Below are positions 1 to 37,057 of a DNA stretch of 37,057 nucleotides, piece by piece. Below the pieces are notes generated by a model, which did not search any database, was not told the DNA's origin, and worked only from the letters and a program-made list of their open reading frames with translations. Within the stretch, counting starts at the first letter, position 1, and every line of letters begins with the position of its first letter. This DNA is from a virus: the IMG/VR virus record IMGVR_UViG_3300043256_000036, positions 1-37,057 of that record, one strand, 5' to 3'. Both the position numbers and the translations under genes were made by a program.

Positions 1-127
1 TCCAGGTCGGCCTTGGGATCGTCCGACGTCTTGTCCTTGACAGCGGTGGCAAGCTCAATTGCGCGCTCGGTGAGAGCGGACTGCGCCTGCTCCAACTCCT
101 CGCGGGTTAGCTCGTCAATCGCGTCGG
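1..127. repeat. Left copy of 127-bp terminal direct repeat
   Basis: These 127 bases are identical to 36931-37057. An exact overlap of 127 bp at both ends is what a de Bruijn assembler leaves when it closes a circle, so this most likely marks a complete circular contig of 36,930 bp. It does not prove a physical terminal repeat on the virion DNA; a circularly permuted (headful) or cos-ended molecule would look the same. Confidence 0.95.
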
Positions 128-173
128 GGTTCTCTGAGAGCTTGGAAAGTAGCTCGAGAAGTTCGGGGTCCAT
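1..173 (-). CDS. Major capsid protein, N-terminal part (continues at 37057)
   Basis: This is the start of the major capsid gene whose body is at 35391-37057. The ATG is at 173-171 with a GAGG Shine-Dalgarno about ten bases upstream (minus strand), and an earlier ATG is closed at once by a stop. Across the circular join the gene is 570 codons long: 26 residues beginning MDPELLELLSKLSENPDAID precede the TTG codon from which the right-hand reading frame would otherwise be taken. This N-terminal end is acidic and helical, as expected of a scaffold-like delta domain. The tRNA-like gene and the protease lie just upstream. Confidence 0.85.
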   Translation of the reverse strand, partial: MDPELLELLSKLSENPDAIDELTREELEQAQSALTERAIELATAVKDKTSDDPKADL

Positions 174-251
174 TAGTGCATACCTCAGCTAGAAGGGGAG
201 ATGGGATGCACTATGTGCGGAGACCCAAGGGTCACGATACCAGGGTGCGCC

Positions 252-355
252 CTCCGGGGCCCGGATTTGAACCGGGGACTTCCAGCCATTAAACACCTGA
301 TCGACCTAATGGTCGGTTAACCGACTGGCGCTCTACCGTGCTGAGCTAACCCGGA
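252..355 (-). tRNA. tRNA-like gene with a 37-nt anticodon loop
   Basis: Read on the minus strand from 355, the sequence folds as a class I tRNA. The acceptor is TCCGGGT/CCCCGGA with one mismatch at 7-66, the D arm is GCTC/GAGC with A14, G18, G19 and A21, the variable loop is AAGTC, and the T arm is CCCGG-TTCAAAT-CCGGG with discriminator G; no CCA is encoded. The anticodon stem CCAGT (328-324) / GCTGG (286-282) pairs fully but closes a 37-nt loop (323-287) instead of 7 nt. The body resembles tRNA-Asn, and the loop begins CGGTTAA, which would place GTT at 34-36 but G rather than U at 33. It may be an intron-bearing, degenerate or unusually folded tRNA. It lies between the protease and capsid genes. 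Confidence 0.6.
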
Positions 356-371
356 GGGGATTCGATCCTAG

Positions 372-1484
372 TCAGGCGTCGAGAGATGCGAGGATTTCGC
401 TGGCCTTCTCGGGAGCGGTGGCTCGGAGTATCTCGTCTTCGAGGTCAGCGATCTTCTCCAGCACGATCTCCAGCCCGGCTCTTTCGGTGGTCACGTCGTT
501 GGTCACGATCAGCGTAGAAGGCTCGCCGCCGGCCACCAGGGCACGGATGCGGGGAAGCTGGAACCCGGCCACGTTGACTGCATGAACTGCCACCAGTTGA
601 CGCTCGCCATTGATTGGTCGCCAGTCACCACTGACCTTGCCGTTGGCCTTGACCTCGTTTACCAGATCCTCGTCTACTCCCGGCTTGAGCATTCCACACA
701 TCCACGGCCCCAAGGCTCCATCGGTGATATGGACATATCCCAGCACCGAGCCAACGTCGTCATAGTGCTCTTTGGCCGCACCAGCGGAGAGCTTGATGTC
801 GGCATGGTTGCCGTGGGCGGTAATCACGCCTACCGCTATCTCGGAACCTTCGGCTGTAATGACCCCGGTGTGGAAATTGGCATACCCTCCACGCGGCGGC
901 GCTACGCAGTTGTCAGGAAAGCCAAGGTGGCACGAATCCCAAGAGGCGAGGTGTCCATAGATCTGCTCGCCTGAGATGGTGATAGGGGTCGGACGCTCCG
1001 ATTCCGGGCGGGTGAAACTAGCCAAGGAGGGGCTCCACCCAGAGGCAATGAGAACGTCCGACCCACGCCGGAAGTTTGTAAGGTTCCCTACGAAGATCGC
1101 GCCGTCGTGACCGTCTGAGGAATCGTTGAACATCAACGGTGCCGGGTCACGCCAAGTCAATGCGCCGTCGGCGATCTTGCGCTTGTCCGAAGTCTCAATC
1201 CCCTCGGGGGCCAAGAAGGCGACCATCCCTCCGTTCTGCTCTTCCAGATGGGCGTCGGCGAAGGCAGGCATCGCCACCTGAGTGGCTCCGATGATCTCAG
1301 CGGCGGTGATGGTCTCCAGCCAGTCGGTAGGGAATCCGTCGTCGTCTACTTCAATGATGTCTATCTCAGCATCTTGAATCGAGAGGTCTACCGAGAGACC
1401 GGCTAGCTTGCCCTCTCTCGCTAGGCGTTCGGCTTCGCGCGCCTCGGCGTCGGTGTCGAACTCAACGTCTGCGATAATCCACAC
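372..1484 (-). CDS. Capsid maturation protease, permuted S78-like
   Basis: This is a 370-residue head maturation protease, placed directly upstream of the capsid gene as is usual. It would cleave the capsid delta domain during prohead maturation. Residues 25-35 hold GKLAGLSVDL, the region of the expected nucleophile Ser, and 71-79 hold the AMPAFADAH segment typical after it. Residues 177-200 hold GHLASWDSCHLGF and CVAPPR, typical of the C-terminal part in actinophage proteases. The segment with ALTWRDPAPLMF and GHDGAIFVG (about 107-133), normally N-terminal and carrying the catalytic His, lies after the Ser segment here. The start is GTG at 1484, overlapping the previous stop (TAGTG). Confidence 0.75.
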   Translation of the reverse strand: MWIIADVEFDTDAEAREAERLAREGKLAGLSVDLSIQDAEIDIIEVDDDGFPTDWLETITAAEIIGATQVAMPAFADAHLEEQNGGMVAFLAPEGIETSDKRKIADGALTWRDPAPLMFNDSSDGHDGAIFVGNLTNFRRGSDVLIASGWSPSLASFTRPESERPTPITISGEQIYGHLASWDSCHLGFPDNCVAPPRGGYANFHTGVITAEGSEIAVGVITAHGNHADIKLSAGAAKEHYDDVGSVLGYVHITDGALGPWMCGMLKPGVDEDLVNEVKANGKVSGDWRPINGERQLVAVHAVNVAGFQLPRIRALVAGGEPSTLIVTNDVTTERAGLEIVLEKIADLEDEILRATAPEKASEILASLDA

Positions 1485-2014
1485 TACGCCACCTCGTAGG
1501 AAAAGGTGATGTTGAAATAGTCGTTATCGCCCCAGGTAAAAGGCCCCGTGTTGGAGACGATTATGGCCGAGCCGTCTGTCTCGACTGCTATCACTCGTAC
1601 AAATTTGGTCCCTGCCACATCCTTAATTGCCACCGTCGCGGGGTAGCCCTTGACTGCATTATTCTCCAGATATCCACTGCCTATTCCATAGACAAGGGCT
1701 GCGTCAGCCTGGGCGGGCTCTACGGGAAATGTGAAGCGCCAAGCCCCCGTTCCGAAGGTCGTTGTTCCGCCCGCCTGAAATCGAATGGTCGCGACGACCA
1801 ACGAGCCAGTCCCCGTACCCAACTGGACGAATCGTCCTGCCAGCGTTCCGTTGCCGATGGCGGGGGCCGTGCTCGCCGCAGTCCAGACAGGTGTGAAGTC
1901 TTCCCACACTGGATACACCGATATCAGGAAGTCGCGCACATCCTGCGCAGTGTTGTTGCCACCATCATCAATCAAGGCCTGAAGTGCGGCGAGAGTACGA
2001 ACCGTGTCAACCAA
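1484..2014 (-). CDS. Virion structural protein (decoration or fibre-like)
   Basis: This protein has 176 residues. Residues 1-35 (RTLAALQALI, then AQDVRDFLISV) form a short helical domain of a kind common at the N-terminus of phage virion proteins, and a similar one opens the protein at 22962-23513. The rest is Thr/Gly/Val-rich and predicted beta-structure, with no Cys and no signal peptide. A head decoration or fibre-like role is inferred from its position between portal and protease and from composition. An upstream in-frame stop leaves TTG at 2014 as the first possible start; the gene overlaps the mini-gene before it by 8 bases. Confidence 0.6.
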   Translation of the reverse strand: MVDTVRTLAALQALIDDGGNNTAQDVRDFLISVYPVWEDFTPVWTAASTAPAIGNGTLAGRFVQLGTGTGSLVVATIRFQAGGTTTFGTGAWRFTFPVEPAQADAALVYGIGSGYLENNAVKGYPATVAIKDVAGTKFVRVIAVETDGSAIIVSNTGPFTWGDNDYFNITFSYEVA

Positions 2015-5035: not shown

Positions 5036-6376
5036 TCAGTGAATCCTAGCCGCTGTGACCTGAGCGACACCTGATGTCAGTTCGCCGGACTCATGCAGGC
5101 CGAGCTCGGTGACGGCCCAGACCAGGGCGTCCATGTGATTGGGTGACCACGGCTCGTCAGGGGTCCAGGTGGTCATCTCGTCCTCCAGCTCAGGAAATGA
5201 ACCGACATGATGCACCCTCCCCTGCTCGTAGAGCGCGGCGATGGGCTCGGCCCTGATCGACTTACCCCGCGATGCAACCACCATGTGAATCGGTGCCGAG
5301 GGCAGGACGGTGCGAATGGTTGATTCGACCATCGCGCCACCGAAGTTACGCTCCGCGGCAAACCGATCGGCCATGGTTTGGTTGAAAGCTGTCACCGCCC
5401 GACGAGCCCAGCCATCCGGCGAGGCCGAGAGAGAGTCGTCACGCAAGACAAAGGCATGTGGTAGGCGCTCCAGGTTCTTACCGCAGGGACAGTTGCCGGT
5501 GGTACGCCCCGCGGTCACTATGCCTGTCGTACCTGAGCCTTCGCCGCCGCCCTGAGGGTCGATACCAACCGCGACCACCGCCAGATCCGGTGCGTCATCC
5601 TTCCAACGATGCTCATCAATCCACACTCGCTTCCAGGGTGCGCCCTCGACCTCATCTAATAGCTCACCGCCGATCTCCTGCCGGCCTTTGGCTGTCCCAC
5701 CGAAAAGCCGGTCGAGCCGCTGATGGTATGACTCCTCCAGATAAGGGTTGTCATCGGTGTGAGCTCGGGTGATGTGATGGTGGGAATCGGTAACGATCTC
5801 GCGGAACTTGGGCCGGCTCTTAGGTGTGGACGATCCCACCCAATGAGGATGGGGGCCGATACGGAGCCCGAGCTGCATCTGGTCCCATGCTTCACCTAGT
5901 TCGGGCCAAGCCGCTAGCTCTTCAACCCAGACGAGGCAGTTGTTGCCCCCGGCACGGAGATGGTCTACATCCCGCCGACTGTAGGTACCGAACAGCTTGA
6001 TCTCCGAGCCATTCTCGAATGTGAAAATGGTCCCGCCTGGCTTGGTCTGAAGTTTCCCTTTCGGGTTCAGGGTGCGCAAACATACCGGATGACGGTCGGC
6101 GGACTCCACCGCGTCGCCAAGAGTCGGAGCGATCAAAGCCATCTTGTGCGGCATGTCCCCCTTGATGCACCGCTCGCCGTTCACATGGTCGGTAACGTAT
6201 TGCGCCATCGCTGCAGTTTTGCCTGAGCCTCTACCCGCCTGGATCAACCACCCTTCGTCAATGATCGCCGGTGGGATTTGATGCGGTAGCAGAGTACGCA
6301 ACGGCGATTGGACGTGCTCCCAGGTTTCCCGAAGGCCATCGAGTCGCTCTAGGTCACTGACTGTCGGCTGCGGCAA
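5036..6376 (-). CDS. terL: Terminase large subunit
   Basis: This 446-residue packaging motor ATPase/nuclease pumps DNA into the prohead through the portal. Walker A is GRGSGKT (48-54) and Walker B is CLVWVEE (147-153) with the catalytic Glu following. The nuclease domain begins around VGIDPQGG (Asp 273), then AERNFGGAMVE (Glu 351) and PNHMDALVWA (Asp 416), the acidic residues of an RNase H-like fold. A CPCGK motif near 296-300 is an extra Cys pair inside the nuclease. ATG 6376 lies within the end of the small subunit gene (23-base overlap). Confidence 0.95.
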   Translation of the reverse strand: MPQPTVSDLERLDGLRETWEHVQSPLRTLLPHQIPPAIIDEGWLIQAGRGSGKTAAMAQYVTDHVNGERCIKGDMPHKMALIAPTLGDAVESADRHPVCLRTLNPKGKLQTKPGGTIFTFENGSEIKLFGTYSRRDVDHLRAGGNNCLVWVEELAAWPELGEAWDQMQLGLRIGPHPHWVGSSTPKSRPKFREIVTDSHHHITRAHTDDNPYLEESYHQRLDRLFGGTAKGRQEIGGELLDEVEGAPWKRVWIDEHRWKDDAPDLAVVAVGIDPQGGGEGSGTTGIVTAGRTTGNCPCGKNLERLPHAFVLRDDSLSASPDGWARRAVTAFNQTMADRFAAERNFGGAMVESTIRTVLPSAPIHMVVASRGKSIRAEPIAALYEQGRVHHVGSFPELEDEMTTWTPDEPWSPNHMDALVWAVTELGLHESGELTSGVAQVTAARIH

Positions 6377-35390: not shown

Positions 35391-37057
35391 CTAGCTCGCG
35401 AACCCTGGGCAAGTCAACGTGACCCTGTTACCGACTGCGCCGGTGGGACAGATTGCTATGTCCTGAAGGTCCCAGGCATCGTGGCCGATCTCACAAACGC
35501 TCTCAAAGGTCTCGGTGAAGACCTGGAAGTCGTTTGTGACGTTGAGCGTCGCGTCCCTGACGATGCCCAGATCCAGCTTCCCCTCATCGAGGCGAATGAA
35601 GGTGCCGGGGGCATAGAGTAGGAAGTCGGCGGCGTCGGGCCATCCGGCGTCGTCGTTGTCTCCGATGCTCTGGTAGTCCTGGACCCACTGGACGTTGACC
35701 CCATACCCAGCCAATACCGAGGCCACGCGGCCCTTGGCATTGTCGAAGGTATTGGTCGAGTCCCTGGCGATCAGGTCGGCAGCGAGTGCATCGAGCACCC
35801 ATGCTGGAGACACCAGATCAAGCGTGGCCGTCGGGCTCATCCTGAAGTTGTCGCGGTACTTGGCCGCGGCAAATGCGATGAGATGTGAGACGTTGACCAG
35901 TCCACCACCACCGGGATCGCCACCCAGCTCTGCGGTCGAAGCCGCCACCATCACTGCGATCAGAGTCTCATTAACGAAGTGGGCATTGAAGTTCATCGAC
36001 TCGGCCAAAGCATGCGCAACGTGCTCTGGGTAGAACCGTTGCGCGAAGTTGCCGAACTGGAGAATCACCGGGTAGGCGTCGATCGTGCACGTCGTGGTCG
36101 TCGGACACTCCACCACGAAGGTGTTCTTCGATGACTCGGCCTCGTCGTCGGTGTTGGAGTGTTGCTGTCCTACAGCATCTCCCCAATCAGTATTAGCGCG
36201 GATCGTTGCATACGAGGTGCTCACCGGATAAGTGAGCCGTCCCCGCGGTGCGCCCACCGTGGGCACCTGAACCATCCCCGATGCCTCCGAGATGGAGAAG
36301 AAATCGTACACCGGTTGTGCTGGAGCACAGATGCCACCGGAAGCGACAAGGGCGTACGTCTCGGGATTGGCCTGAGCCTCGGCTTCGATCTCCTTGAGCA
36401 TTGCGTCGATCACCGCCGAGTCATGCTCAACCTCACCGGTGACCTGATACTTGTATTGATCGAGCGTGTCGAACGACGCCGCCACATAGCGCTCAGTGTG
36501 ACGTGGCCTCGAAGACCCAAAGGACTTCCAGTACTTCATCACGGCCTTGGACATCTCCCCAATGTCACCAAAGGTCTTGGACTCAAGGCCCGGCCCGGCG
36601 GACGCCACCAGAGCGGGCACCGGATCGGGATGGCGGGGAGCACGTTTGGCAAGGGCGCCGATGGAGGGAGCGGCCACTAGGACCTTCTCCGGCTCATCAA
36701 CTACTTCCGGCTCTACAAGCTCTGCCACAACCTCTTCGACCTCTTCAACCTCTGGCACCTCTACTTCAGCGACCTCGATGGTCTCTTCGGCTTCCTCTTC
36801 GACTTCGGCCTCGAAGTCGAGACCGTCAAGGATCTCGTCGGCTGAGGAGTTGTTAGCAGTCTCCTCTTCGATGAAGGTCTCCAGACGGGTGCTGATGGCA
36901 CCGAGGCGTTCCTTGGCCTCTAGCGCAGCTTCCAGGTCGGCCTTGGGATCGTCCGACGTCTTGTCCTTGACAGCGGTGGCAAGCTCAATTGCGCGCTCGG
37001 TGAGAGCGGACTGCGCCTGCTCCAACTCCTCGCGGGTTAGCTCGTCAATCGCGTCGG
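35391..37057 (-). CDS. Major capsid protein (continues into 1-173)
   Basis: This is the main body of the 570-residue HK97-fold capsid protein (joined with 1-173 across the circle). Residues about 1-190 are acidic and helical, rich in Glu, Val and Pro (VEEEAEETIEVAEVEVPEVE): a delta/scaffold domain likely removed by the protease. The fold region then includes SSRPRHTERYVAASFDTLDQ, AQPVYDFFSISEASGMVQVP and NGATLNVTND-like strands ending LTCPGFAS. The gene is followed by a terminator and preceded by the tRNA-like gene and protease. Confidence 0.9.
   Translation of the reverse strand, partial: DAIDELTREELEQAQSALTERAIELATAVKDKTSDDPKADLEAALEAKERLGAISTRLETFIEEETANNSSADEILDGLDFEAEVEEEAEETIEVAEVEVPEVEEVEEVVAELVEPEVVDEPEKVLVAAPSIGALAKRAPRHPDPVPALVASAGPGLESKTFGDIGEMSKAVMKYWKSFGSSRPRHTERYVAASFDTLDQYKYQVTGEVEHDSAVIDAMLKEIEAEAQANPETYALVASGGICAPAQPVYDFFSISEASGMVQVPTVGAPRGRLTYPVSTSYATIRANTDWGDAVGQQHSNTDDEAESSKNTFVVECPTTTTCTIDAYPVILQFGNFAQRFYPEHVAHALAESMNFNAHFVNETLIAVMVAASTAELGGDPGGGGLVNVSHLIAFAAAKYRDNFRMSPTATLDLVSPAWVLDALAADLIARDSTNTFDNAKGRVASVLAGYGVNVQWVQDYQSIGDNDDAGWPDAADFLLYAPGTFIRLDEGKLDLGIVRDATLNVTNDFQVFTETFESVCEIGHDAWDLQDIAICPTGAVGNRVTLTCPGFAS
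36931..37057. repeat. Right copy of 127-bp terminal direct repeat
   Basis: This copy is identical to 1-127. See the left copy: assembly closure of a circular molecule is the simplest reading. Confidence 0.95.

Follow-up and report, generated by a model that had tools for sequence, protein, structure and literature searches.

We identified an interrupted tRNA-like gene in the head operon of a phage, within a window of 37,057 nucleotides (the whole stretch of viral DNA analyzed). Its frame looks like that of a tRNA-Asn(GUU), judging from sequence features. We consider it probable (roughly 0.58) that this is a tRNA-Asn-derived cassette with an interrupted anticodon loop that is not spliced, and that it represents a non-decoding pseudo-tRNA. 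The asparagine tRNA has most likely lost its decoding role, as no cut leaves a normal tRNA. As it stands, the gene appears to be an interrupted tRNA gene of little consequence. It is outweighed by the result of the accompanying search, which revealed recurrent phage tRNA genes with anticodon-arm insertions. Among these is at least one conserved family, which is present in cultured phages and can be tested directly.

Structure and setting of the interrupted gene

The original prediction had placed a class I tRNA-like gene at 252-355. The coordinates proved right, and the gene lies on the minus strand (Table 1). The Rfam tRNA model RF00005 aligned at full length (model positions 1-71) with 41.9 bits, compared with a gathering score of 29 (E = 8.2e-8 in a 311-bp slice and 2.3e-9 in the genome). 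The default fast Rfam scan of the whole window did not detect this tRNA and ARAGORN, run without introns, called nothing at 252-355. Thus, ordinary annotation could overlook the gene too.

Read from 355 to 252, the minus strand is TCCGGGT TA GCTC AGCACGGTA GAGC G CCAGT CGGTTAA (CCGACCATTAGGTCGATCAGGTGTTTAATG) GCTGG AAGTC CCCGG TTCAAAT CCGGG CCCCGGA G, with the insertion in parentheses. The D (4/4), T (5/5) and anticodon (5/5, including one G-U) stems are fully paired, the variable loop is 5 nt long, and U8, A14, G15-C48, the D-loop GG and TTCAAAT are present. The gene has the acceptor, D and T arms, U8, A14, G18G19 and TTC of a functional class I cloverleaf, with one mismatch (U7.C66). The prediction that all arms fit a normal tRNA holds for the D, T and anticodon stems. 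It was slightly overstated for the acceptor, given this mismatch and pairing that runs 2-3 bp past position 73 (CCCUCCGGG/CCCGGAGGG).

Table 1. Features of the window, and loci elsewhere that carry related or comparable RNAs.
Feature	Position or loci	Strand	Basis or remark
tRNA-like gene, class I frame, tRNA-Asn(GUU)-derived (probable), anticodon loop interrupted	252..355	-	Rfam RF00005, Asn-type acceptor end
Acceptor strand, 5' (TCCGGGT)	349..355	-	partner 253-259; 6/7 pairs, U7.C66 mismatch
D arm, GCTC-AGCACGGTA-GAGC	330..346	-	Rfam alignment
Anticodon stem, 5' strand CCAGT	324..328	-	Rfam alignment
Asn-type anticodon-loop remnant CGGTTAA	317..323	-	anticodon GUU 319-321; G, not U, at 33
30-nt insertion CCGACCATTAGGTCGATCAGGTGTTTAATG	287..316	-	excision enumeration; boundary ambiguous by about 1 nt (38/39 or 37/38)
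Perfect 14-bp palindrome GTCGGTTAACCGAC	312..325	.	spans anticodon stem and insertion
Anticodon stem, 3' strand GCTGG	282..286	-	Rfam alignment
T arm, CCCGG-TTCAAAT-CCGGG	260..276	-	Rfam alignment
Acceptor strand, 3' (CCCCGGA) and G73	252..259	-	CCA not encoded; GGCGCACC comes next
Head maturation protease-like gene, upstream of tRNA in operon	372..1484	-	ORF, PHROG matches
Major capsid gene, 5' end	1..174	-	phrog_777 major head protein; continues 35391-37025 across the join
Palindromic capsid leader element GCACATAGTGC	208..218	-	kept in the related phage that has no tRNA
Class A loci, part 1	L186-L188, L190, L191, L193, L194, L199, L200		
Class A loci, part 2 (and others)	L012, L028, L032, L038, L043, L050, L052, L061, L069, L075, L088, L091, L119, L120		
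Loci of the GGTGAAGGACC...GGTAAAGCAAGCC set	L015, L033, L066, L093, L099, L110, L027, L036, L104		

Two independent lines of evidence indicate a tRNA-Asn(GUU) in which the insertion follows position 38 (or lies at 37/38). The first is the acceptor end TCC...GGAG (U1-A72, C2-G71, C3-G70, G73), which 4/26 Asn tRNAs share and no other isotype shows among 754 tRNAs found in the loci gathered for this analysis. The second is the start of the loop, CGGTTAA, which has GUU in frame and matches the Asn consensus CTGTTAA except at position 33 (G instead of U). G33 itself is rare (2/673 tRNAs). The acceptor-end pairs, G73 and in-frame GUU of the Asn lineage are present in the Rfam register, upon which the assignment depends; ARAGORN puts the acceptor one base out. 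In intron mode, ARAGORN proposed Leu(taa), with this shift and an intron at 33/34, or Val(aac), in either case with a class I variable loop, and its fixed-position intron option made no call for 252-355. We rejected Leu(UAA) because tRNA-Leu of bacteria is class II and the variable loop here is short.

The contig has an exact 127-bp terminal repeat (1-127 = 36931-37057), giving a circle of 36,930 bp in which this is the one tRNA gene. The portal, terminase, tape measure and major head proteins match actinobacteriophage families. An archaeal virus is not supported, given these structural proteins and an endolysin/amidase.

Searches with the protease, portal and capsid found one related phage only (L002/L121; 50%, 57% and 52% identity, respectively). 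No tRNA was found within 11.6 kb around its capsid gene. In L121, the protease stop codon abuts a leader that aligns with the window sequence 3' of the tRNA, GCACATAGTGC included, with a score reached by 0/1000 shuffles. Thus, the tRNA is a discrete insert in one lineage, or was cleanly lost from the other. A comparison with related phages at this position had been proposed as a way to recognize a decayed tRNA. In the one relative found, the gene is missing altogether.

GCACATAGTGC occurs at window positions 208-218 and at L121:9298-9308, in phages whose capsid proteins are about 52% identical, and is perhaps a regulator site or an RNA hairpin site. The large terminase genes (window 5036-6376 versus L121:3832-5310) appear quite different, whereas portal, protease and capsid are common to both phages. 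The two genomes appear to be mosaic, the break lying immediately upstream of the portal gene.

We identified no DNA relative or second copy of the interrupted gene in phage records, viral contigs or prokaryote genomes. Where the same stem encloses a long loop in genomes, the archaeal matches have tRNA context (ordinary introns) and the bacterial ones are without it. L154 matches the start of the arm exactly but was rejected as coding sequence.

Within the head operon, the tRNA lies 16 nt after the protease stop codon and 77 nt before the start of the capsid gene (174), on the same strand. No sigma-70-like promoter was found in window positions 1-1500, and the single terminator-like site there is inside the protease gene. 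This placement, with no sigma-70-like promoter or terminator nearby, and the intact arms of the body would suit a functional tRNA-like element kept for its body. Such an element could direct cutting of the message between protease and capsid by RNase P/RNase Z, or could serve as a decoy or sponge, and its anticodon arm would be free to vary. We regard this as possible, if somewhat unlikely. It gains from the L048/L097 and class B RNAs, which are conserved-looking tRNA-frame RNAs with altered anticodon arms. However, the related phage manages without a tRNA at the same junction, pairing past position 73 and the lack of an encoded CCA would make a poorer processing substrate, and there are no homologues in which selection could be tested.

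Excision of the insertion and the anticodon arm

The predicted 30 or so extra nucleotides in the anticodon loop are indeed there. The stem CCAGT/GCTGG encloses a 37-nt loop with G33, rather than a 7-nt loop with U33 and a purine at 37, and a loop of this size would not present the anticodon normally. The position of the insertion agrees with 37/38 or 38/39, near the canonical intron site.

All single excisions were enumerated, and none yields a stem of 5 bp, U33 and a purine at 37 at the same time. The same test succeeded in 18/68 genes (the window gene and 67 viral genes whose D-to-T spacing is long) compared with 0.6 expected from shuffles, and therefore has power. A bulge-helix-bulge (BHB) scan gave a result not above the shuffle rate (46% of shuffles have such a motif), and the motifs found disrupt the anticodon stem. 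The gene thus lacks two features expected of a protein-spliced intron of the archaeal or eukaryotic kind, a significant BHB at the junctions and an excision that restores a normal anticodon arm, and the suggested likeness to such introns is not borne out. That the insertion is small and not a group I element was correctly foreseen. Group I ribozyme cores comprise about 200 nt or more. A group I intron is excluded because the insertion is 30 nt long and has no group I match in Rfam. Given the absence of a clean excision, G33, BHB motifs at chance level and no group I element, splicing of the 30-nt insertion is unlikely from what the sequence offers.

A genuine small intron at or near 37/38, removed by an undescribed route to give a tRNA-Asn(GUU) with G33, is accordingly weighed against these results and seems improbable. 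The insertion does occupy the canonical intron site and is flanked by Asn-like parts, small introns have been reported in tRNA genes of Lak phages (Devoto et al., 2019, PMC6784885), and a tRNA-Thr(UGU) gene of another viral contig (L074) has a clean anticodon-loop insertion. However, no excision restores U33 and R37, the BHB signal is at chance level, the motif of the class A insertions described below is absent and the class A model aligns the tRNA body only, and archaeal genes with the same stem retain U33 in their exons. We also find quite unlikely the wider proposition of either a real 30-nt intron spliced in a bacterium by an undescribed route (leaving a G33 tRNA) or an unspliced, non-decoding tRNA mimic. 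If the insertion were spliced, small tRNA introns would be extended to a small phage of a bacterium, and an unknown splicing route would be needed.

The source of the inserted sequence was sought in the phage itself. The insertion shares no stretch of >=11 nt with the rest of the genome, and a copy of another genome part was rejected. A partial duplication of the anticodon arm was rejected as well (best 9/16 matches, p = 0.2).

The hairpin GACC-ATTA-GGTC noted in the original prediction exists, and short hairpins are possible in the 37-nt loop, but the loop folds no better than shuffled loops (p = 0.17, or 0.14 with the stem held). The GACC-ATTA-GGTC hairpin overlaps the palindrome GTCGGTTAACCGAC, so that the two structures are mutually exclusive. 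The palindrome is perfect and has p about 0.001 within the arm, and tRNA genes are often attachment sites. These points would favor an element that acts at the DNA level, with GTCGGTTAACCGAC as a protein-binding site or the tRNA as an attachment site, and with the RNA incidental. Against this, GTCGGTTAACCGAC has no further copy at <=3 mismatches, it is one of two 14-bp palindromes in 37 kb (about the chance expectation), and no integrase was identified among the proteins scanned. We consider a DNA-level role very improbable.

The tRNA body, the insertion, the Asn-type features, the lack of a clean excision and the absence of the gene from the relative are read from the sequences. From these we infer an order of events for a pseudo-tRNA that is neither spliced nor used in decoding; a degenerate gene was among the options listed in the original prediction. 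A tRNA-Asn(GUU) gene would have been inserted as a cassette into the head operon, with the protease gene on one side and the capsid gene on the other. About 30 nt would have interrupted its anticodon loop adjoining the canonical intron position (37/38), and G would have replaced U33. In the transcript, the acceptor, D and T arms would form a tRNA body, and the anticodon arm would be oversized and unable to decode. Host RNase P and RNase Z could still release the intact body from the operon mRNA.

Some observations do not sit easily with a pseudo-tRNA. Pairing is complete in the D, T and anticodon stems, and the insertion is where a tolerated or functional one would sit. Decay should add stem mismatches, but only U7.C66 is seen. 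Finally, phages have tRNA-frame RNAs that combine an enlarged anticodon arm with apparent conservation, so an RNA of this kind can be maintained by selection.

Anticodon-arm insertions in other phage tRNA genes

A pattern search for tRNA genes in which the D and T arms are about 20-50 nucleotides further apart than usual returned 118 viral contigs, many of which contain tandem or class II tRNAs. In about 24 of the 118, the 5' strand of the anticodon stem is interrupted after position 28 or 29 by 41-50 nt. The insertion in these genes, here termed class A, contains a hairpin and, following it, ACAGCAA or a closely similar sequence. For 11 of the approximately 24, the anticodon arm is perfect once the insertion is removed, and Lys, Ile, Asn and other anticodons are represented. 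Two-sided changes that preserve pairing occur in the acceptor stem, the T stem, the inner half of the anticodon stem and the insertion hairpin.

KVP40 has about five class A genes, including the annotated tRNA-Pseudo-4, which is conserved in 45 Vibrio phage records; tRNA-Pseudo-5 probably belongs to class A also. About four class A genes were identified in GAP32. A clean arm upon excision is not universal, as KVP40 tRNA-Pseudo-4 does not yield one. When ten class A genes were compared with Rfam, most scored simply as tRNA and the insertion was given no other family. The motif is absent from four long Lak-A1 tRNA genes, and the family is undescribed in the literature searched, which comprised open-access papers only. 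The class A insertions resemble introns of a class as yet unnamed.

The window gene does not belong to class A. Its insertion follows position 38, the motif is absent and model R1 aligns its tRNA body only. A match of 47.6 bits to the class A model was rejected as evidence of membership, being achieved via the tRNA body as with ordinary tRNAs.

Other tRNA-frame RNAs were encountered in the viral contigs. In a second conserved set, a block around GGTGAAGGACC...GGTAAAGCAAGCC takes the place of the anticodon arm (Table 1), and no match to this set was found in phage records. At L048:2440-2524 and in the related contig L097, the anticodon arm of a tRNA frame is a long hairpin, GGGTGGTAATG...CATTACCACCC. 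The tRNA-Thr(UGU) at L074:5584-5665 (minus strand) carries a hairpin of 28 nt as a clean insertion in its anticodon loop; taking this out leaves U33 and A37 intact.

Comparison with known systems

The small introns of Lak phage tRNA genes belong to Prevotella phages of >540 kb with large sets of tRNAs. Many of these introns recur unchanged in different cohorts, and their boundaries are defined by intron-free versions (PMC6784885). Like the Lak genes, the window gene has a small phage-tRNA insertion of no described intron class, and removal is putative in both cases. Unlike these, it is a single tRNA in a 36.9-kb phage, with no intron-free version and no clean excision, and its insertion is not kept in relatives, the sole relative found being without the tRNA.

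Archaea possess tRNA splicing enzymes. Archaeal introns at 37/38, which are of the BHB type (for example, at DPANN loci L126-L128, L140-L142 and L147), resemble the window insertion in size, position in the loop and the CCAGT...RCTGG stem. However, the archaeal exons keep U33 and the anticodon, whereas the window gene is without U33 and without a significant BHB, and its phage's proteins match those of phages of bacteria.

The class A genes of KVP40, GAP32 and other large phages share with the window gene a small anticodon-arm insertion in an otherwise good phage tRNA. They differ in that their insertion is in the 5' stem strand, has the hairpin and ACAGCAA, and often leaves a perfect arm when removed, none of which applies to the window gene. 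Phage pseudo-tRNAs, such as the KVP40 tRNA-Pseudo genes, are similar in being tRNA-frame genes annotated as non-functional. The pseudo label alone is no proof of decay, because KVP40 tRNA-Pseudo-4 is both conserved and class A-like.
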